Assembly (NCBI GenBank): GCA_020247305.1
Contig: JADCJE010000029.1
Span: 1-52,559, forward strand
Direction: 5' to 3'
DNA from: Phycisphaerales bacterium
GTDB taxonomy: Bacteria; Planctomycetota; UBA1135; UBA2386
Length of the DNA stretch: 52,559 bases
Each line of letters starts with the position of its first letter. The first letter of the stretch is position 1. Made by a program: the position numbers and the translations under genes. Below are positions 3 through 24,024 of the stretch, piece after piece. Under the pieces are notes generated by a model. The model had not been told where the DNA came from. It did not search any database and saw nothing but the letters and a program-made list of their open reading frames with translations.

Positions 3-1406
3 GGTCTCGCCGGCCCCTACACCAACGTCGGCTCGACGACGTCCTTTCCTTGGCCGTGCGCGATCGGCGGCAACGACGTCTGGTTCGTCTACCAGTCGGG
101 CGCCGCGGGTTCGCTGACCGTCGACCTCTGCGGCCAGGCGTCGTACGACTCGGCGCTGGAGATCTTCGACGGCGCCGGCGGCTGCGGCGGCCTCGTCTCG
201 CTCGGTTGCAACGACGACACCTGCGGCCTGCAGTCGTCGGTCACGGCGACGCTCCCTGCTCCTGGCCTCTACTACGTCCGCGTCGGCGGCTACAACGGCG
301 ACACGGGCTCGTTCTCGCTCAACGTCAACGGCCCCGGCGGCGGCAGCGGCGTGCTGGCGAGCAACACTTCGCTCGGCATCGGCTGCATCCGCCAGTTCAC
401 GTCGTTCTACGAGCGGTTCCCGACGACGCCGTCGATCGACCTGTCGAACACGGCGTTCTCGATGGTCTCGACCGGCAGCGGCTACGTCGTGATCCCGTCG
501 TCGACGGCCTTCATCCCGCCGTCGGCCACGGCCGCCAATCTCGGCCTCGGTGACGACACCGAGACCGGCATCTCGCTGTCGGCGCCCTTCGCCTACCCGG
601 GCGGCACGACGACGACGCTGAACGTCTGCTCGAACGGCCACATCGCGACGGCGAGCAACGGCGCGGCCTTCGACTACACGCCGACGGCCAGCGAGTTCCT
701 CGGCTGGACCAATGCGACGTGGGCCGTCTGGCGCGACTTCATCTGCACGCCGACGGGCAACGTCAAGTTCGAGGAAGTCGGCGGCATCGCCTGCGTCACG
801 TGGGACGGCGTCATCGGCTATGTCGGCACGCAGCCAGGCACCGTGACGAGCACGTTCCAGATCCAGTTCGAGCTGGCCACGGGCAACGTCAACTTCGTGT
901 TCCAGAGCATGGACACGGTGTCGATCAGCGGCCTCACGGGCGGCGACGGCTACCTCATCGGCTACTCGGGCCCTGGCGCCAACGCCGATGGCGGCAACAC
1001 GGACATCTCGACGATCGGGGCACTGAGCCTCGTCGGCGCCGACGTCCTGCCGCTGACGCTCGCCGGCACGTCGCGCCCGGTGACGGGCACCAACTGGGGT
1101 CTGTCGGTCAGCAACATCCCGGCGACGGGCATCCTCGGCGTCGACGTGTTCGGCCTGAGCGACCCGGGCATCAACGACCTGTTCTTCCTCGGCGCGCCGG
1201 GCTGCGGCCTGCGCGCAGCGCTGGACGTCACCAACGCCTGGCTCGTGACGGGTCCGACGCACGCGTACAGCCTGTCGATCCCGAGCAACCCCGCGCTGCT
1301 GAGCCTCAACCTGTACACGACCTCGGCAGTGTTCCAGGTGCCGCAGGTGAACAGCCTCGGCGCGATCACCAGCAACGGCATCCAGGGCCTCGTCGGCAAC
1401 CTGTGA
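3..1406 (+). CDS. Secreted surface protein, PPC-like and C-terminal beta modules (5' truncated)
   Basis: The reading frame is open from the left edge, so the start lies outside the window; 467 residues are visible. The first ~115 residues look like a pre-peptidase C-terminal (PPC)-type beta sandwich: a block ending LTVDLCG, then IFDGAGGCGGL, a CNDDTC cysteine pair, and a closing strand GLYYVRVGGYNGDTGSF. A Gly/Ser linker leads to a second beta-rich region of about 220 residues. The C-terminus carries LGAPGCGL and a late SNGIQGLVG segment, a layout I associate with large extracellular planctomycete proteins. Cysteines come in pairs and Lys is rare, as expected for an exported protein. No enzymatic motif is visible. 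The likely role is as a cell-surface or secreted structural protein; the exact function is unknown. Confidence 0.8.
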   Translation, partial: GLAGPYTNVGSTTSFPWPCAIGGNDVWFVYQSGAAGSLTVDLCGQASYDSALEIFDGAGGCGGLVSLGCNDDTCGLQSSVTATLPAPGLYYVRVGGYNGDTGSFSLNVNGPGGGSGVLASNTSLGIGCIRQFTSFYERFPTTPSIDLSNTAFSMVSTGSGYVVIPSSTAFIPPSATAANLGLGDDTETGISLSAPFAYPGGTTTTLNVCSNGHIATASNGAAFDYTPTASEFLGWTNATWAVWRDFICTPTGNVKFEEVGGIACVTWDGVIGYVGTQPGTVTSTFQIQFELATGNVNFVFQSMDTVSISGLTGGDGYLIGYSGPGANADGGNTDISTIGALSLVGADVLPLTLAGTSRPVTGTNWGLSVSNIPATGILGVDVFGLSDPGINDLFFLGAPGCGLRAALDVTNAWLVTGPTHAYSLSIPSNPALLSLNLYTTSAVFQVPQVNSLGAITSNGIQGLVGNL

Positions 1407-1457
1407 GGTCGCGGCCCGCGACGCGGGCACGCTGACGCGGGGGCTGCGCTCCTGCGA

Positions 1458-1503
1458 CGCCGCGCGGCGCTTCCCGGATCCCGGGGAGCGCCGCGCGGCG
1501 TTT
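1458..1503 (+). terminator. Strong hairpin terminator after the surface protein gene
   Basis: A 20-bp stem (1458-1477 with 1481-1500) has only one G-T wobble and a 3-base ATC loop. It is followed by TTT at 1501-1503. It lies 51 bases after the stop codon of the surface protein gene. The stem is extremely G+C-rich, and the T-tract is short but present. Confidence 0.7.
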
Positions 1504-1629
1504 CAGTTGGCACGCGCGGCGGCGTGCGCGCCGCAGGGGGGAGCAATCCGAACGGGCGCCGGCGACCGCGGGCGCGCCCGTGCGCACGAATGCAGACCGG
1601 CGCGGTCGAAACGACGGCCCTGCGAAAGG

Positions 1630-2031: not shown

Positions 2032-2871
2032 ATGGTCGAGCAAGCGCAACCGTCGGCGTCTGGGAAGCGGGCGACGATCTTCGCAGTGACTTCAGGCAAG
2101 GGCGGCGTCGGCAAGACGTCGCTGTCGGTCAACCTCGCGTGCGAATTCAGCCGACGCGGGCATCGCACCATCATCGTCGACACCGACCTCGGACTGGCGA
2201 ACGCGCACATCCTGGCCGGCATCAAGCCGGCGCGCACGCTGTCCGACTACATCGACGGCAAGGCCGAGCTCGCCGACATCATCGAGACCGGGCCGTGCAA
2301 GGTGAAGTTCATCACCGGCGGCAGCGGCGTGAAGGAGATGGCGAACCTCGACGACAACGGCCGCGCCCGCATCTGCCTCGCCGTCGAGGAGCTGGCGCCG
2401 TTCTGCGACGTCATCCTGCTCGACACCGGCGCCGGCGTGTCGAAGGGGGTCACCGACTTCGTCAGCATCGCCGACCACACGATCCTGGTCACCACGAGCA
2501 ACTTCGCCGCGATCGCCGACGCGTACGGCATCGTCAAGGTGATCGTGCAGGACGGCTTCCGCAAGCCGATCCACTGCGTCGCCAACCGCGTCCGCTCGCC
2601 GGAGGAGGCCGAGCAGGTGTTCCTCAAGCTCAAGGGCTGCACCGAGCGCTTTTTGCAGTTCGAACTCAACTGGCTCGGACTGATGCCGGAAGATAGCTCC
2701 GTTGAGGGCGCCGTCTTGAAGCGCGCGCCCTTCAGCGAGGTCTTCCCGAACAGCGTCGCGACGCGGTACCTGGGCAAACTGGTGTCCGCGCTCGAACGCT
2801 ACGTCGGGGACGGCAAGCCGGCGCAGCCGGCCGCGCCGCCGCAGCCGGCACAGCCGGCGGCGAAGGCCTGA
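2032..2871 (+). CDS. MinD/ParA-family P-loop ATPase (FlhG/YlxH-like)
   Basis: This 279-residue protein is a deviant-Walker ATPase. The motif SGKGGVGKTS sits at residues 21-30 with signature Lys23 and catalytic Lys28. A switch I region VDTDLGLANAHI and the Walker B-like ILLDTGAGVSKGV follow. Such proteins dimerise on ATP and position cell machinery: flagella, poles or septum. The LGLANAHILAG pattern is closest to FlhG/FleN (MinD-like regulators of flagellar number). No flhF or other flagellar gene is nearby, so the partner is unknown. ATG at 2032 is chosen because the motif begins about 20 residues later, as in the family. A weak purine run (GAGGGGA) lies about 20 bases upstream. The C-terminal tail is Pro/Ala-rich. 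An HU-like gene follows 66 bases downstream. Confidence 0.85.
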   Translation: MVEQAQPSASGKRATIFAVTSGKGGVGKTSLSVNLACEFSRRGHRTIIVDTDLGLANAHILAGIKPARTLSDYIDGKAELADIIETGPCKVKFITGGSGVKEMANLDDNGRARICLAVEELAPFCDVILLDTGAGVSKGVTDFVSIADHTILVTTSNFAAIADAYGIVKVIVQDGFRKPIHCVANRVRSPEEAEQVFLKLKGCTERFLQFELNWLGLMPEDSSVEGAVLKRAPFSEVFPNSVATRYLGKLVSALERYVGDGKPAQPAAPPQPAQPAAKA

Positions 2872-2924
2872 GGGAAGGGGCATCCGACACTGGGCAAAGG
2901 GGCGAGAGCCCGCATCAAGAGGCA

Positions 2925-2931
2925 AGGGGAG
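2925..2931 (+). promoter_or_regulatory. Ribosome binding site of the HU-like gene
   Basis: The purine run AGGGGAG ends 6 bases before the ATG at 2938. It is one of the few clear Shine-Dalgarno sequences in the window and fixes the start of the HU-like protein. Confidence 0.6.
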
Positions 2932-2937
2932 AGTTTC

Positions 2938-3348
2938 ATGACGCGCACCACCAACCAGAATGCAGTGCAGAACACGGCCGACACCGAGACCGACGCGTTC
3001 GGTCGTCAGGCCAACAAGGGCATCCTCGCCGACCAGGTCGCCGAGGAACTCAACGTGCCGCGCCGCACTGCCGCCCGCGTCCTCGACGCGGTGCTCGACG
3101 CCGTCAGCGACCTGCTGCGCGGCCGCGGCAAGGTCGCGGTCAAGGGCTTCGGCACGTTCGAGCGGCGCATCCGCAAGGGCCGCGCCTACAAGCACCCGCT
3201 GACGGGCGAGAGCATCGACGTCGCCAACAAGGAGACGATCATCTTCAAGCCCAGCGACCAGCTGATCATCGACACGCGCACGGACGCGCCGGCGCGGCCG
3301 AAGAAGGCCCAGGGCAGCAGCACGGACGACATCCTGTTCCAGGGCTGA
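2938..3348 (+). CDS. HU/IHF-family DNA-binding protein
   Basis: This 136-residue protein has the HU fold in the middle: helical dimerisation region with ADQVAEELNVPRRTAARVLDA, then KVAVKGFGTFERR, the family's GxFxxxxR signature, and the DNA-grasping beta arm with a KHPLTGE segment. HU-type proteins bend and compact DNA. Compared with a standard ~90-residue HU it carries about 28 extra N-terminal residues rich in Asn/Thr and a polar C-terminal tail of about 20. The arm tip is KGRAYKHPLTG rather than the usual RNPxTG, so DNA bending may differ from classical HU. It sits after the MinD-like ATPase and could be co-transcribed with it. A long hairpin follows downstream. Confidence 0.9.
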   Translation: MTRTTNQNAVQNTADTETDAFGRQANKGILADQVAEELNVPRRTAARVLDAVLDAVSDLLRGRGKVAVKGFGTFERRIRKGRAYKHPLTGESIDVANKETIIFKPSDQLIIDTRTDAPARPKKAQGSSTDDILFQG

Positions 3349-3386
3349 ACCGCTGCGGCGGGACGCGGCGCCGAAGCGCCGTGCGC

Positions 3387-3423
3387 ACGGGGGAGTCGAC
3401 GCCGCAGGCGTCGACTCCCCCGT
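3387..3423 (+). terminator. Perfect 17-bp hairpin after the HU-like gene
   Basis: The inverted repeat 3387-3403 / 3407-3423 is perfect over 17 bp with a 3-base GCA loop. There is no T-run on the plus strand, so it may be a factor-assisted terminator or an mRNA-stabilising end. It lies between the HU-like gene and the nitrilase-family gene. Confidence 0.5.
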
Positions 3424-3498
3424 CGCCATTCCGGCCGCAGCGCTGGCGCCGCGCCGGCGAAGTGGCGCGGCGGGAGGGTCGCGATATCGTCGCGCTCC

Positions 3499-4383
3499 GT
3501 GCCCAACGCCGACCGTGAGTTCCAGGCCGCCTGCGTGCAGTTCGACGTGCGCCCGGGCGACGTCGCCGCCAACAAGGCGGCGATGTGCGCAGGCATCGAG
3601 GAGGCGGTCGGCGCCGGCGCGCGGCTGTGCGTGCTGCCCGAGCTCTGGGCGACGTCCTTCCTGCCCCAGTTCGACGACGACGTGGTGCGGCAAGCCGAAG
3701 CCGCCGAGGCAGAACTGCGCGAACTGTCGCACGGCCTGCGCCTCGTCGTCGTCGGCAGCAACCTTGAGGTCGTCGGCGGCGAGGTCTTCAACACCGCGCA
3801 GGTCTGGGACGGCGGTGAGCTGCGCGGCTCGTACCGCAAGATCCACCTGTTCTCGCCCAACCTGGAGCACCGCCGCCACGCCGCCGGCGCGTCGCCCTGC
3901 GTCGCCGAGACGTCGCTCGGCCGCCTCGGCGTGCTGATCTGCTACGACCTGCGCTTTCCGGAACTTTCGCGCTACTACTTTCACCGCGGCGTCGAAGTGC
4001 TGGCCGTGCCGGGCCAGTGGCCGGAAGCGCGGTCGCAGCACTGGCGCACGCTGCTGCGCGCCCGCGCCATCGAGAACGAGTGCTTCGTCGTCGGCTGCAA
4101 CCGCACCGGCCAGGAACCCTCGCAACGCAACGGCGAGCCGATGACGTTCCCGGGCGACGGCCGCATCGTCGATCCGATCGGCGACGTGCTCGCCGCGGGC
4201 TCCGGCGACGCCGGCGCGATCGTCGCAGCGATCGAGCCGCGCAAGGTGCGCACCATGCGACGCATCCTGCCGATCGCGCGCGACGTGCGCCCCGACGTCT
4301 ACGCGCAGCTGTTCGCCGAGACGCTGCCGATCATGCAGTCACAGCAGCGGCCGCCGCGCACAGCCGACGGCGACGCCGACTGA
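3499..4383 (+). CDS. Carbon-nitrogen hydrolase (nitrilase superfamily, omega-amidase-like)
   Basis: This 294-residue protein has the complete Glu-Lys-Cys triad of the nitrilase superfamily: Glu48 in LPELWA, Lys114 in YRKIHLF and Cys148 in LICYDLRFPE. The family hydrolyses amide or nitrile C-N bonds in the cytoplasm. The YDLRFPELSR block and overall length match the Nit2/YafV omega-amidase branch (alpha-keto acid amides) better than true nitrilases; that substrate is an inference. The GTG start at 3499 directly precedes the N-terminal beta strand (QAACVQFDV), leaving only a few extra residues. It converges on the sigma-factor gene, with 54 bases between their stop codons. Confidence 0.88.
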   Translation: MPNADREFQAACVQFDVRPGDVAANKAAMCAGIEEAVGAGARLCVLPELWATSFLPQFDDDVVRQAEAAEAELRELSHGLRLVVVGSNLEVVGGEVFNTAQVWDGGELRGSYRKIHLFSPNLEHRRHAAGASPCVAETSLGRLGVLICYDLRFPELSRYYFHRGVEVLAVPGQWPEARSQHWRTLLRARAIENECFVVGCNRTGQEPSQRNGEPMTFPGDGRIVDPIGDVLAAGSGDAGAIVAAIEPRKVRTMRRILPIARDVRPDVYAQLFAETLPIMQSQQRPPRTADGDAD

Positions 4384-6880: not shown

Positions 6881-7945
6881 ATGCCCGTTCCGACCGCCTC
6901 GCCGACCGAAGCCGCCGTCCTTGACGCCCTGCGCGCCGTCCAGGACCCGGACCTGCACCAAGACATCGTCACGCTCGGGTTCGTCAAGGACCTGCGCGTG
7001 TGCGGCGACCAGGTGGCCTTCCAGATCGAACTGACGACCCCCGCCTGCCCGGTCAAGGACCTGATGAAGGGCCAGGCCGAGCGCGCCGTGAAGGCGCTGC
7101 CCGGCGTCGCCGGCGTCGCGATCGAGATGACGGCGCGGGTCACGGCCAGCCGGCCGGTACTCGGCAACAAGGGCGTCATCCCAGGCGTCAAGAACGTCGT
7201 CGCGGTGTCGTCGGGCAAGGGCGGCGTCGGCAAGTCGACCGTCGCGGTCAACCTCGCCTGCGCCCTGCGGCAGACGGGCGCGCGGGTCGGCATCCTCGAT
7301 GCCGACGTCTACGGCCCGAACGTGCCGCTGATGCTCGGCGTCAGCGGCCAGCCCGCCGTCGTCGACAAGAAGATCGTGCCGTTCGAGCGCCACGGCCTGC
7401 AGGTCATGTCGATGGCCCTGCTGATCGCCGAGGACCAGCCGGTGATCTGGCGCGGCCCGATGCTGCACAGCGCCGTGCGCCAGTTCCTCTTCGACGTCGC
7501 CTGGCACGACCTCGACTACCTCGTCGTCGACCTGCCGCCGGGCACCGGCGACGCCCAGCTGTCGCTGAGCCAACAGGCGCACCTGATGGGCGCCGTCATC
7601 GTCACGACGCCGCAGGACGTGTCCGTCCTCGACGTGAAGAAGGCGATCCGCATGTTCCAGACCGTCAACGTGCCGATCCTCGGCGTGGTCGAGAACATGG
7701 CGTGGTTCAGCCCGCCGGGCAGCAGCGAGCGGTACCATCTCTTCGGGCAGGGCGGCGGCGCCAAGATCGAACGCGAGTTCGGCGTGCCGCTGCTCGGCCA
7801 GATCCCGATCGAGATCGCCGTCCGCGAAGGCGGTGACGGCGGCAACCCGATCGTCGTCGCGGCCCCTGCCTCGGCCAGCGCCAAGGCGATGACCGAGATC
7901 GCCGGCAAGGTCGCGCAACGCATCAGCATCCTGAACGCAGAGTGA
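6881..7945 (+). CDS. mrp: Mrp/ApbC-type Fe-S cluster carrier ATPase
   Basis: This 354-residue protein has an N-terminal MIP18 (DUF59) domain (about 8-90, with the conserved Cys56 in TTPACPVKD) followed by a MinD-like ATPase domain with SGKGGVGKST at 111-120, DADVYGPNVP and the VVDLPPGTGD block. Mrp/ApbC/Nbp35 proteins carry Fe-S clusters to target apoproteins. In most members a CxxC near the C-terminal part bridges a cluster between two subunits. Here the equivalent loop after ENM reads AWFSPPGSSERYHLFG with no cysteine, like forms I recall from cyanobacteria. The next gene, 4 bases downstream, is a small CxxC protein, so the two are almost certainly co-translated. Confidence 0.93.
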   Translation: MPVPTASPTEAAVLDALRAVQDPDLHQDIVTLGFVKDLRVCGDQVAFQIELTTPACPVKDLMKGQAERAVKALPGVAGVAIEMTARVTASRPVLGNKGVIPGVKNVVAVSSGKGGVGKSTVAVNLACALRQTGARVGILDADVYGPNVPLMLGVSGQPAVVDKKIVPFERHGLQVMSMALLIAEDQPVIWRGPMLHSAVRQFLFDVAWHDLDYLVVDLPPGTGDAQLSLSQQAHLMGAVIVTTPQDVSVLDVKKAIRMFQTVNVPILGVVENMAWFSPPGSSERYHLFGQGGGAKIEREFGVPLLGQIPIEIAVREGGDGGNPIVVAAPASASAKAMTEIAGKVAQRISILNAE

Positions 7946-7949
7946 ACCC

Positions 7950-8186
7950 ATGAACAACCCGACCAACACGACCCCGACGGCCGCCACGGCCCGTTTCACC
8001 ACCAAGTCGACGATGCTGGAGTGCCTGACGGCCGACCCGTCGCTCGGCATGGTGCTGATGCGCGACTTCCACCTCGGCGGCTGCCGCAACTGCGGCTTCA
8101 ACCCGCACGACTCGATCGAGACCGTCGCGATGCAGAACGGCATCCCGACCGACCGCCTGCTGGCGGCGATGAACCGCCAGGGCTGA
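7950..8186 (+). CDS. Small DUF1858/ScdA-N-like CxxC protein
   Basis: This 78-residue cytoplasmic protein begins 4 bases after the mrp stop. After a Thr/Asn-rich start it has a helical segment (MLECLTADPSLGMVLM) and the loop GGCRNCGFNPHDSIETVA, followed by a final helix. The layout matches the DUF1858 / hybrid-cluster-associated redox disulfide domain, where a CxxC sits in a short four-helix fold. These domains are linked to Fe-S and nitrosative-stress proteins, but their activity is poorly known. Tight coupling to an Mrp that lacks its own CxxC makes a partnership attractive, but that is inference only. Confidence 0.8.
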   Translation: MNNPTNTTPTAATARFTTKSTMLECLTADPSLGMVLMRDFHLGGCRNCGFNPHDSIETVAMQNGIPTDRLLAAMNRQG

Positions 8187-8218
8187 GAGCCTGAGAACCC
8201 GGCAAGCATTCACTGCAC

Positions 8219-8243
8219 GGCCCTCAGGTTGCCTCTGAAGGCC
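8219..8243 (+). other. Imperfect hairpin downstream of the DUF1858 gene
   Basis: GGCC-C-TCAG, a 7-base loop, then CTGA-A-GGCC form an 8-bp stem with one C/A mismatch. It lies 32 bases after the stop of the small CxxC gene. No T-run follows, so a terminator role is only possible. The rest of 8187-8402 shows nothing I recognise. Confidence 0.25.
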
Positions 8244-8402
8244 GCGCGTGCGGTCTCGGCGTGAACGCGGTCTCGTGCTGCGCACGCGCCGCAACGGCTC
8301 GCCATCCGCACCGAACGTCCGCCGCTGCAACGGCGACGCTTGCACCCTGCCTCGCAACGGCCAGAATCCGCGACGGCGCGACTGCGCCAGCCCCTCCACT
8401 CC

Positions 8403-8723
8403 ATGGTCACCGAACTCAACGACAGCAACTTCCAGAGCACCGTCCAAGGCGCGAAGACGCCGGTGCTCGTCGACTTCTCCGCCACCTGGTGCGGCCCCTG
8501 CAAGGCGCTCGCGCCGACGATCGACAAGGTCGCGACCGAGTACACCGGCAAGCTCGCCGTCTACAAGGTCGACATCGACAACGCGCAGGAGTCGGCCGCC
8601 TCGTTCGGCATCCAGAGCGTGCCGACGTGCATCTTCTTCAAGGGCGGCAAGGAAGTCGGCCGCTTCCTCGGCAACCAGCCGTTGCAGGCGATCAAGAGCC
8701 AGATCGACCGCGTGCTTGCCTGA
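8403..8723 (+). CDS. trxA: Thioredoxin
   Basis: This 106-residue protein is a complete thioredoxin of normal length. The active site is WCGPC at residues 29-33 after VLVDFSATW, and the cis-proline loop is SVPTCIFFKGG. Such proteins reduce protein disulfides in the cytoplasm with electrons from thioredoxin reductase, which is not in this window. ATG at 8403 gives the standard N-terminus. The cis-Pro is followed by Thr-Cys, which adds a third cysteine near the active site, a variation seen in some bacterial thioredoxins. The lipB gene follows with an apparent overlap. Confidence 0.95.
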   Translation: MVTELNDSNFQSTVQGAKTPVLVDFSATWCGPCKALAPTIDKVATEYTGKLAVYKVDIDNAQESAASFGIQSVPTCIFFKGGKEVGRFLGNQPLQAIKSQIDRVLA

Positions 8724-9363
8724 TCCAACGCCGGCCCGCGCCGCCGACGACGCGCGGCAGGTCGAGGTGATCGACCTCGGCCGCGCCGCGTACGGCGACG
8801 TGCTCGAACGCATGCGTGCCCGGCACGCAGCCGTGCAGCGCGGCGAAGCCGATGGCGTGGTCTGGCTCGTCGAGCACGAACCGGTGTACACGGCCGGTCG
8901 AGCGACGCCGACCGGCGACCTCGGGCCAGGGATCGTGCCGATCGAGCGCGGCGGCAAGATCACCTACCACGGCCCCGGGCAACTGACCGTCTACCCGCTC
9001 GTGCGCCTGCCGCGGCGCGACGTGCGCGACTGGCTTCGGCGCCTCGAAGCCTTCGGGGTCCGCATCGCCGCCCGCTTCGGCCTCACCGCCACGCCGTCCG
9101 TCGACGGCACCGGCGTGTTCGTCGGCGACCGCAAGTTCGCGTCGATCGGCGTGCACGTGAAGGGCTGGGTCAACCTGCACGGCATCGGCGTCAACATCGC
9201 GATGGACCTGACGCCGTGGCACGCGGTGCGGCCTTGCGGCCTCGCACCCGACGTGATGACCGACCTGTCGCGCGCCGCCGGGCGGCCGATCGCGATGGCC
9301 GAGGCCGCTGCCGCCGCCGCCGGCGAGGTTTCCGTGCTGGTCGATCCGGACGGTGCGGTATGA
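8716..9363 (+). CDS. lipB: Octanoyl-ACP:protein octanoyltransferase LipB
   Basis: This protein, about 215 residues long, transfers octanoate from acyl carrier protein to lipoyl domains, the first step of lipoate synthesis. Motifs are VWLVEHEPVYTAGR, the glycine-rich KITYHGPGQL, Lys140 in DRKFASIGV, and the catalytic Cys174 in RPCGLAPDVMT. The start is uncertain. TTG at 8716 overlaps the thioredoxin stop and keeps the first beta strand (VEVIDLGRAAY); GTG at 8767 would cut into that strand. LipA, the sulfur-inserting partner, is not in the window. The Mrp/thioredoxin neighbourhood fits a cofactor and Fe-S theme. Confidence 0.93.
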   Translation: MPDPTPARAADDARQVEVIDLGRAAYGDVLERMRARHAAVQRGEADGVVWLVEHEPVYTAGRATPTGDLGPGIVPIERGGKITYHGPGQLTVYPLVRLPRRDVRDWLRRLEAFGVRIAARFGLTATPSVDGTGVFVGDRKFASIGVHVKGWVNLHGIGVNIAMDLTPWHAVRPCGLAPDVMTDLSRAAGRPIAMAEAAAAAAGEVSVLVDPDGAV

Positions 9364-11340: not shown

Positions 11341-11969
11341 ACTGGGACCAGGCGATCCTGACCTTCGGCGCGCTGATCGTCAGCCTGACGCTGCACGAGG
11401 CGATGCACGCCTGGGTGGCGATGCTGTTCGGCGACCTGACCGCGTACCGCACCGGGCAGGTGACGCTGAATCCGATCCCGCACATCCGGCGCGAGCCGTT
11501 CGGGATGCTGCTGCTGCCGATGATCAGCCTGATGGCGAGCAAAGGCACATCGTGCCTCGGCTTCGCGCACGCTCCGTACGATCCGGTGTGGGCGGCGCGC
11601 AATCCGCGCAAGGCGGCGGTGATGTCCGCCGCCGGCCCGTTCGGCAACCTGCTGCTGGCGGCGATCGCGTTCGGGACGCTGGCGGTCGTCGGCGTGTACC
11701 GCCACTACGACACGGCGACCGCGGTGCAGGTGATGGCCTTCGAGTTCCTCTACATCAACCTGCTGCTCGTGGTCTTCAACCTCATCCCGCTGCCGCCGCT
11801 CGATGGCGCCGGCGTGGTGCGCGGCCTGTGGCCTGCGGGCGGTCGCTGGCTCGACGCCTTCGCGGCGCTCCCGTTCAGCTTCGTCATCGTCTTCCTGCTC
11901 GCGTCGACCGTTCTCGGCGAAGTGATGACCCCGATCCTGCGGTGGGTGCTCGAACTGCTGCCGCGCTGA
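11337..11969 (+). CDS. Site-2 protease family membrane metalloprotease (M50)
   Basis: This 210-residue protein is an intramembrane zinc protease of the compact S2P group. The zinc motif is HEAMH at residues 20-24 in the first membrane helix. A later helix carries NLIPLPPLDGAGVV, whose Asp156 is the third zinc ligand. About five hydrophobic segments are visible, and no PDZ domain is present. Members of this short group are usually housekeeping proteases of unknown substrate. The insert NPIPHIRREPFGMLLLPM is the typical re-entrant loop. The GTG start overlaps the xseB stop, so it is coupled to exonuclease VII expression, though no functional link is known. Confidence 0.9.
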   Translation: MNWDQAILTFGALIVSLTLHEAMHAWVAMLFGDLTAYRTGQVTLNPIPHIRREPFGMLLLPMISLMASKGTSCLGFAHAPYDPVWAARNPRKAAVMSAAGPFGNLLLAAIAFGTLAVVGVYRHYDTATAVQVMAFEFLYINLLLVVFNLIPLPPLDGAGVVRGLWPAGGRWLDAFAALPFSFVIVFLLASTVLGEVMTPILRWVLELLPR

Positions 11970-22686: not shown

Positions 22687-23163
22687 TCACCGTGCGAACG
22701 GCAGCGCGTCCGGCACCAGCACGACCTCCGGCCGGCGCTCGACGCGCGCCAGCACGAGGCCGTCCGCCGCCGGGCCTTCCCAGCGCCACGCCAACTCTGC
22801 GCCGGCGAGTTCGAACCACAGCCCGCCGGCGCGCGCCGTCGTGCGCCCGCGCGCCTCGATCCACATGCGCTCGGGCAGGAACCCGGCCTGGTCGACGGCG
22901 ATCGGCACGCCGGCGAGGTCCGGCACGCGGTCCGTCGCCGGCGTGATCGTGCAGCGGTTGGCTTGCAGATCCACCTGGACATCAGCCACGCCATCCAGGC
23001 GCAGCAGGCCGTCGGCCACGGCCTTCACTCAAGGCAGTCACTCGAGCCCGAGCGTCTCGATCCAGATGGTCTGCAGGCCGTGGCCGCGGGCGGCGGCGGC
23101 CTGCGGCAGCGGCGCCTGGCAGGCGACGGCGAGCAGCAGGGGAAGGGCGAGCGTGCGGCGCAT
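22687..23163 (-). CDS. Candidate UxxU selenoprotein: exported HMA-domain protein
   Basis: Read through two in-frame TGA codons, this gene gives one protein of 158 residues. Residues 1-15 form a signal sequence ending in a possible lipobox (LLAVAC, Cys15). From residue 31 it is a heavy-metal-associated (HMA/MerP-like) domain: strand QTIWIETLG, loop G39-L-E-U42-L-P-U45, helix VKAVADGLLRLDGV, strand ADVQVDL. MerP-type domains have GMxCxxC at this exact place, so both metal-binding cysteines are replaced by TGA and the protein has no other CxxC. TGAs are at 23040-23038 and 23031-23029. The same frame is intact before, between and after them. A further ~50-residue C-terminal part is unfamiliar. 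The ATG lies 15 bases after the upstream gene's stop. Without Sec insertion the alternative is a 41-residue peptide and a GTG-started ORF. Confidence 0.72.
23006..23024 (-). promoter_or_regulatory. Possible bacterial SECIS hairpin
   Basis: On the minus strand AGGCCGT (23024-23018), a GGCCG loop and ACGGCCT (23012-23006) form a 7-bp stem. The loop begins with GG, and the first loop G lies 21 bases after the first TGA, within the distance range known for bacterial SECIS elements. A second stem, CCTGGA/TCCAGG (22999-22994 with 22979-22974), could serve the second TGA. Sequence alone cannot prove SelB binding. Confidence 0.4.
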
Positions 23164-23178: not shown

Positions 23179-24024
23179 CTAGAACAGAACGCGGAAGGTT
23201 ACCAGCACGCCGACGCGGAAGCCGCCGAGCGCCGATTCCGTGTCGTCGACGAGCGGCAGCAGCACGCCGGCCTCGACGCTCGTCGCCGCGGTGGCATTGG
23301 CCTGCAGACCGACCAGCGCCTTGGCGTAGAAGCCGCCATTGTCCTGGCCGACGCCGCCCTGGCGGTCGTCCTGCTGCCAGCCGGAGATCAGCTCCACCAC
23401 CGAGCGCAGTTCGTTGCGGTGCACACCCGGCTCGAAGCGCACGGGGTGCAGACGCATCCACCACGCGGCGTCGAAGGTGACCGCCTCACCGGGCGCGAAG
23501 ACGCCGTCCTCGGTGTATGTCCAGCCGCGCAGCGCCGCCGCGGCGCGGTGGCGGTCGCGCACCGTCGTCCAACCAACACCCGCGCCGAAGCCGTACACGC
23601 CGAGCCCGAGCGCGGCGCGGCGGCCGAGGTCGACGCCGCCGACACGGCCGTCATCGTCGCCGGTCGGCAGGCGCACGTTGCCGAGCACCGACAGGCGCTC
23701 GGACCGCATCACCGCGTCGGCGCGAACCAGCGCCCACTTGGCGCCGAACTCCAGGTCGCCGAGGCCGCTCGTGCTGCCCTGCGTCGCGGCGGTGTCGACC
23801 TCGCGTGCGATCCACGGCACGCCGGCTTCGAACTGCAGCCAGCGGTTCTGCGACCACGCTGCGCGCGTCGTCGCGCGCAGGTCGTCCGCGCCGGCCCGAT
23901 GCTGCCACTCGAACGTCTCGCGCGCGGCGATCAGCGCCGGCGACAGCACGCCGGCGTCGGTCGTCAGCAGTTGCGCCGGCAGGACGGCGGCGAGCGCGGC
24001 GACGGCGAGGACGGGGCGCAACAT
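23179..24024 (-). CDS. Outer-membrane MetA-pathway/transporter-like protein
   Basis: This 281-residue protein has a signal peptide (MLRPVLAVAALAAVLPAQ) and then alternating beta strands ending in a terminal Phe (VLVTFRVLF), as outer-membrane beta barrels do. Segments such as GLGDLEFGAKWAL, GNVRLPTGDDDG and a strand-rich C-terminal half match the PF13557-type 'phenol MetA degradation' outer-membrane family, whose members often sit beside metal or solvent transport genes. It probably forms a small barrel or channel. The next gene downstream (15 bases) encodes the candidate HMA selenoprotein, which suggests a metal- or chalcogen-related role. The HD gene lies 59 bases upstream on the same strand. 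Confidence 0.75.
   Translation of the reverse strand: MLRPVLAVAALAAVLPAQLLTTDAGVLSPALIAARETFEWQHRAGADDLRATTRAAWSQNRWLQFEAGVPWIAREVDTAATQGSTSGLGDLEFGAKWALVRADAVMRSERLSVLGNVRLPTGDDDGRVGGVDLGRRAALGLGVYGFGAGVGWTTVRDRHRAAAALRGWTYTEDGVFAPGEAVTFDAAWWMRLHPVRFEPGVHRNELRSVVELISGWQQDDRQGGVGQDNGGFYAKALVGLQANATAATSVEAGVLLPLVDDTESALGGFRVGVLVTFRVLF

Follow-up and report, generated by a model that had tools for sequence, protein, structure and literature searches.

The window, a 52,559-nt stretch of DNA from a Phycisphaerales bacterium, carries on its minus strand a gene (22687..23163) that by all sequence tests applied is a member of a selenoprotein family. Its predicted product is a lipoprotein with selenocysteine (Sec, U) at both metal-ligand positions of a heavy-metal-associated (HMA) domain, a motif of the form UxxU. 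The gene is paired with one for a predicted outer-membrane beta-barrel, and the occurrence of such pairs across the phylum suggests a likely selenium-based handling of soft metals, for instance mercury or copper. The reading that we favour, with a probability of about 0.7, is that the UxxU lipoprotein captures a soft metal (Hg, Cu or Ag) with its Sec pair and exchanges it with the upstream-encoded barrel. The part of this explanation that can be read from the DNA rests on the TGA codons at the ligand positions, the exchange of U and C among relatives, the Sec machinery, the covarying hairpins and the gene pair.

Reading frame and in-frame TGA codons

The frame opens with an ATG at 23163 and runs for 158 codons to a terminal TGA at 22689-22687, the third TGA in the frame. 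The two internal ones are codon 42 (23040-23038, minus strand) and codon 45 (23031-23029, minus strand), and translation of the frame places them at the first and second ligand positions of the HMA loop GLE-U-LP-U, where both are predicted to encode Sec. With TGA read as cysteine, the Pfam HMA model (PF00403) matched residues 39-79 at 28.6 bits, over its cut-off of 24.8; the segment past the second TGA alone scored 20.1 bits. The first-pass annotation had proposed a single 158-codon frame with an HMA domain and TGA at both ligand positions, and this was confirmed by the translation and the Pfam match.

In codons 26-41, on the 5' side of the first TGA, the window and genome G006, a member of the same genus, are separated by 3 synonymous changes and no nonsynonymous one; over codons 46-95 the dN/dS between them is 0.067. 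A read-through search across the order returned 30 matches bearing stop codons, 29 with TGA only and 1 with TAA. The TGA lies within the ligand motif in 28 of the 29 TGA-only matches. The remaining one, locus L083 in genome G015, had been flagged with one TGA that proved to be an ordinary final stop, and it is a CxxC form.

The 11 closest database protein clusters (P0014-P0024, 110-120 aa) all start past the ligand motif. Since these entries begin after the second TGA, ordinary annotation does not reveal the family.

Relatives and exchange of the ligand motif

A search of 61 near genomes gave 8 matches, the window's own included. Two are UxxU forms from the same genus, 87% (G006) and 53% (G005) identical to the window protein. 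A third, from the same family and 57% identical (G011), has TGA followed by TGT at the two codons and is thus a UxxC form. Another family contributed a gene with the motif GVT-U-SM-U (G055), a further genome (G040) carries CPKC, and the match in G003 is a fragment at a contig edge that ends ahead of the motif. The match in G017 was judged to be due to chance, and the weak match at locus L026, a thioredoxin-like frame with CEPC, was taken as chance. A separate contig scan found a single relative, 87% identical, on VGZG01000078.1 from a Planctomycetota metagenome-assembled genome; this locus is probably the contig of G006.

These relatives bear on the claim, made from the window's letters alone, that chance read-through or a frameshift would hardly strike both ligand codons. 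It holds up well: both TGA codons recur in the two genomes of the same genus, and the same-family genome has TGA followed by TGT at the same two codons, so that neither chance nor sequencing error accounts for them. Sequencing error and a pseudogene were accordingly rejected, as the TGA codons are conserved in independent genomes under purifying selection. The companion expectation that homologues would show only cysteine or Sec at these two residues is true of the closest members and of the CxxC forms; it does not extend to the UxU branch, in which the second TGA falls two codons after the first.

Profile searches were run on 154 genomes from the order and on 392 from the phylum. From the matches listed, 76 loci were picked by score and TGA content, and they held 94 HMA matches, 60 of them with a barrel in reach; a stricter threshold and the removal of one artefact left 56. 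The artefact, one of 57 rows, was the second HMA of locus L113, which results from a split barrel. The examined loci thus contain at least 56 distinct barrel-HMA pairs in at least 54 Planctomycetota genomes, among the matches listed. By motif the 56 pairs divide into 23 UxxU, 14 UxU, 3 UxxC, 2 CxxU and 14 CxxC forms, which are proportions among the matches listed and, given how the loci were picked, not unbiased frequencies. Two further CxxC forms (L117, L118) have their barrel more than 400 bases away and were left out of the pair counts, and no barrel was detected at the Sec-type loci L086, L105 and L131 at the sensitivity of the barrel profile, which was built from 15 of the examined loci.

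The barrel is upstream in 42/42 Sec-form pairs and downstream in 13/14 CxxC forms among the matches listed. Exchange at close range is seen within one family, where genome G348 has CNLC and G368 has CNLU. A tree of 55 barrels requires no fewer than 8 changes of motif class, and no fewer than 2 between Sec and Cys; the tree is a quick one with SH-aLRT support only, 16 of its 52 inner branches drawn open and one partial barrel relabelled by hand.

Selenocysteine machinery

The genome of the window (G000) is a 4.93-Mb assembly in 219 contigs, 92.6% complete with 3.7% contamination. It encodes tRNA-Sec (73 bits, over the cut-off; ARAGORN anticodon tca) together with SelA, SelB and SelD, each over its cut-off, so that the search for Sec machinery on which the first reading had been made to depend came out in its favour. 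The SelD gene (L017, contig C197) adjoins SelA and has an in-frame TGA of its own.

Reassignment of TGA to cysteine, tryptophan or another residue in this lineage would also leave the frame open. However, this gene has TGA as its final stop in the window and in G006 and G005, and the genome encodes the complete Sec machinery; we consider a changed code the least probable of all the readings weighed here, with hardly any weight left to it.

SelA was found in 40/40 genomes with Sec-form pairs and in 6/14 with CxxC forms (examined loci, among the matches listed; Fisher p 2.9e-6), a comparison in which the taxa are not independent and the 8 genomes lacking SelA come from 4 families and are 96-99% complete. 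An earlier order-level list had a SelA match in 38/38 genomes, 37 of them over the cut-off, and therefore the Sec trait does not separate the forms within the order.

Hairpins downstream of the TGA codons

Past 23040 on the minus strand, where RNA structure had been suggested as a check on the first reading, covarying hairpins lie 3' of the TGA codons. Hairpin 1 (23006..23024, minus strand) has 7 bp and a 5-nt loop that starts 20 nt past the first TGA and 11 nt past the second. Hairpin 2 (22985..23005, minus strand) has 8 bp and the loop TGGAT, which starts 31 nt past the second TGA and 40 nt past the first.

Of the 28 Sec-form pairs whose motif spans four residues, 27 made up the comparison set, locus L059 having been lost to a position filter. 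In these 27 genes no gaps are needed to align the 45 bases past the motif, for which RNAalifold, unaided, returned two adjacent hairpins (-21.85 kcal/mol) with two-sided changes in 7/14 pairs. When the structure derived from the window was imposed on the 26 distinct Sec rows, 88.5% of pair cells were formed and 8/15 pairs had two-sided changes. The covariation score was 0.389, against 0.047-0.122 when the structure was slid along the alignment, and the paired share fell to 36-47% on sliding; none of 500 column shuffles reached the paired share or the covariation of the Sec set.

Among the 14 CxxC genes, 37.6% of cells were paired (27-41% when slid), the covariation score was 0.096 (0.066-0.126 when slid), and RNAalifold gave no consensus structure. 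Because only 2/500 column shuffles matched their paired share, a faint hairpin signal may be present in the Cys set. A synonymous-codon null of our own design, in a set that includes genes without a barrel, gave a mean z of -1.86 for 63 Sec regions versus -0.19 for 24 Cys regions (Mann-Whitney p 8e-7). The UxxxC genes taken alone yielded no hairpin consensus, nor did 7 UxxU genes that lack an adjacent barrel; 12 UxU genes gave a different, weaker one.

Bacterial SECIS elements are described as having an upper stem of 4-16 bp, a loop of 3-9 nt located 16-37 nt from the TGA, and a G in the first two loop positions (PMC13188914). In the window, hairpin 1 satisfies these rules with respect to the first TGA, and hairpin 2 does so with respect to the second. 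Hairpin 1 would then serve the first codon and hairpin 2 the second, because each loop is 16-37 nt from that codon only. A G is found within the first two loop positions of hairpin 2 in 26/27 genes (loop base 33 is G in 26/27) and of hairpin 1 in just 15/27. Both hairpins are also kept in single-Sec forms such as those of G011 and G122, so that one hairpin per TGA is a hypothesis.

A covariance model built from the hairpins (R1) found in the window's genome, at E <= 0.001, a sole match, the window hairpins themselves, which are a training row. Over 154 genomes at the same threshold it gave 17 matches, 9 of them training rows. Five untrained matches lie just past in-frame TGA motifs of HMA genes: three are known pairs (L187, L190, L194), one is a UxU gene new to the search (L191) and one a UxxxU gene (L192). 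The matches L193, L195 and L196 are weak and look like chance.

Were the TGA codons true stops, the window would hold a broken gene or two short genes. Standard annotation agrees with that, in that all 11 closest clusters begin past the motif, but the codons are conserved in independent genomes, purifying selection acts on both sides of them, the Cys forms are intact and the hairpin consensus is confined to the TGA forms. We regard true stops as very improbable, and decoding of both codons as Sec is the reading carried forward.

Protein architecture and gene neighbourhood

The signal sequence proposed in the first-pass annotation is here refined to a putative lipoprotein type (23119..23163, minus strand). 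Cys15 is the predicted lipidated residue; its column is invariant in 17/17 aligned members, and by the lipobox rule it would be the lipobox cysteine. A lipid anchor is thereby predicted from sequence features. The claim that no cysteine pair remains elsewhere was borne out, with the single Cys71 remaining; this residue is conserved in the closest four members and missing in more distant ones.

An AlphaFold2 model with the 17-row alignment as input reached a mean pLDDT of 91. Its secondary structure and Foldseek delimit an HMA domain at residues 30-100 (22864..23076, minus strand; beta-alpha-beta-beta-alpha-beta), and the model adds a C-terminal beta domain at residues 96-158 (22690..22878, minus strand). 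Residue 42 is located just ahead of the first helix and residue 45 at its start. The best solved matches in Foldseek were HMA copper domains (HMA7, CopZ-type chaperones) and oxidized MerP.

The conserved partner gene (23179..24024, minus strand; 281 codons and TAG), which the first-pass annotation had missed, stops 15 nt ahead of the lipoprotein ATG. Its model (pLDDT 88) has a signal helix and then long strands throughout, and the closest Foldseek matches were FapF (5o65) and the COG4313 channel (4rl8), with TM-scores of 0.67-0.71 over the query. The window's barrel has no Pfam match up to E 1; of the 10 partner barrels scanned, 4 matched PF13557 (Phenol_MetA_deg) over its cut-off.

Genes related to metals are found near some of the pairs. 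MerR-type regulators occur in 11 of 56 wide loci, not every one of which holds a pair, and TIGR02051 MerR was the best NCBIfam match of the 3 MerR-type proteins scanned, each below the cut-off. Copper-type or heavy-metal P-type ATPases and a CusA/CzcA pump are near some pairs over their cut-offs, and MerTP-like proteins near others fall below that of MerTP_fusion. Fourteen MerT matches were found in 12/40 Sec-form genomes; 5 of the 14 are no more than 2.5 kb from a pair, 4 over the cut-off (G449, G189, G112, G383) and that of G150 below it. The window's genome (92.6% complete assembly) has no MerT match. Pfam analysis of 8 ORFs around the window's pair identified an HD-domain hydrolase upstream and an exonuclease-like gene downstream, and there is no match to MerR, MerT, P-ATPase or RND at 13000-33500 of the window.

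Other selenocysteine HMA genes

Several additional Sec HMA genes were met during the searches. Thirteen loci (L061, L064, L066-L074, L084, L087) encode short UxxxC HMA proteins, in which the two ligands are spaced by one additional residue; most of them are lipoprotein-like, and L066 carries the domain twice. These loci have no barrel nearby and were left out of the pair counts. UxxxU spacing occurs in L078 (G055, 11435-11746, plus strand; UGMGU) and L192 (G034, 1401-1572, minus strand; UGATU).

Locus L139 (G292, 25-360, plus strand) is a UxU-type member with UTUNDU, three TGA codons within six, and is cut by the contig end. In L098 (G178, 2325-3384, plus strand) the first pair is followed by a second barrel and then a second Sec HMA gene (QGUTUNE), incomplete at the end of the segment examined. 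L140 (G449, 7049-8995, minus strand) encodes a 649-aa protein with CopZ-type 2Fe-2S, MerT-like, HMA and thioredoxin regions and adjoins a MerR-type gene and a barrel-UxxU pair. At L063 (G032, 3068-3505 and on, plus strand) an HMA domain with UMGU continues in frame into a UAPC segment, apparently giving three Sec in one protein; its HMA part scores 66.8 bits against the cut-off of 95 of NF041115, and no barrel was detected at the locus.

Proposed function

If both TGA codons are decoded as Sec, the product would carry a lipid anchor and two selenocysteines. These two residues would together capture a Hg, Cu or Ag ion in the periplasm, and the metal would be handed to, or taken from, the predicted outer-membrane barrel as its putative physical partner. 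By analogy, the protein may work like a MerP/CopZ-type metallochaperone fixed to the membrane, and a selenol metallochaperone serving the barrel seems the most likely role. It is plausible that the predicted selenol ligands have a stronger affinity than cysteine for Hg, Ag or Cu, as was proposed at the outset.

The UxxU pair could instead belong to a selenol redox protein, forming a diselenide or reducing disulfides or metal ions with no metal in transit. Almost all selenoproteins whose function is established act in redox or antioxidant processes (PMC9312934), the related HMA domain of L063 runs in frame into a thioredoxin-like UAPC segment, HMA-thioredoxin proteins are located near other pairs (L146, L147), and Cys71 is retained by the four nearest members. 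However, Cys71 is lacking in more distant members, the predicted fold is that of an HMA domain and not of thioredoxin, and the informative neighbours are MerR, MerT, P-ATPase and RND genes. A redox role is therefore unlikely, yet it is the alternative to which we give the most weight.

A broader picture, in which metal transfer by the lipoprotein is one element, can be offered tentatively and with rather less than even odds. Planctomycetota would possess a two-gene selenium metal machine at the outer membrane, made of a barrel and a lipoprotein with a two-selenol clamp. Each UGA would be served by its own SECIS hairpin, the two hairpins standing back to back, and evolution would have switched the clamp several times among UxxU, UxU, UxxC, CxxU and CxxC.

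The location of the predicted Sec pair in a metal-clamp fold makes a ligand role of Sec directly testable, and the natural CxxC, UxxC, CxxU, UxU and UxxU versions form a ready-made comparison set. With nine bases from the start of one UGA to the start of the next and two covarying hairpins downstream, the gene also provides a natural system for the decoding of closely spaced Sec codons. How a message with two UGA Sec codons must still stop at a third UGA is a question open to the same system.

Comparison with known systems

The first-pass annotation left it undecided whether the family had been described. The kind is known: a UxxU 'putative mercuric reductase' has been tabulated (PMC13188914, PMC9312934), and a UxxU protein is also given as metal-binding protein NF041115 (PMC13188914). 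The GOS survey includes MerP in its table of selenoproteins (PMC2398784). Planctomycetes are reported to have selenoproteins (PMC4807772); mercury, copper and heavy metal do not occur in that paper's main text. A literature search with few subscription journals among its coverage found no title or abstract opening on the barrel-lipoprotein pair.

NF041115 (UxxU_metal_bind) is the nearest catalogued family, sharing with the window protein the HMA fold and Sec at both ligand positions, and its short model of 74 positions does match (E 5e-4). The window protein could on that account be a divergent member, but we think this improbable: its 20.1 bits fall far short of the cut-off of 95, three CopZ models do as well or better on it, and a different HMA gene, that of L063, reaches 66.8. 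Features that set the window protein apart from NF041115 are the lipoprotein-type signal, the C-terminal beta domain, the barrel partner and the two hairpins. NF045683, a MerT/CopZ fusion-like heavy metal transport selenoprotein, shares the use of Sec in a mercury/copper-type HMA setting but is a MerT fusion, and the window scores 12.5 bits against 375.

MerP (TIGR02052; PDB 1osd, 1afi) has the HMA fold and the two-ligand site in common with the window protein, which scores 19.3 bits against a cut-off of 92.55 and differs in its predicted lipid anchor, its C-terminal domain and a genome without a match to MerT, the inner-membrane transporter with which MerP works. The partner barrel resembles the COG4313 channel (4rl8) and FapF (5o65) in fold and, unlike these, is linked to a lipoprotein of metal-binding type. 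The case for a novel variant comes chiefly from NCBIfam and Pfam scans and from database entries that start after the motif. UxxU metal-binding selenoproteins are thus already known as a kind, and by the NF041115 and MerP cut-offs the family in the window is a distinct variant of it.
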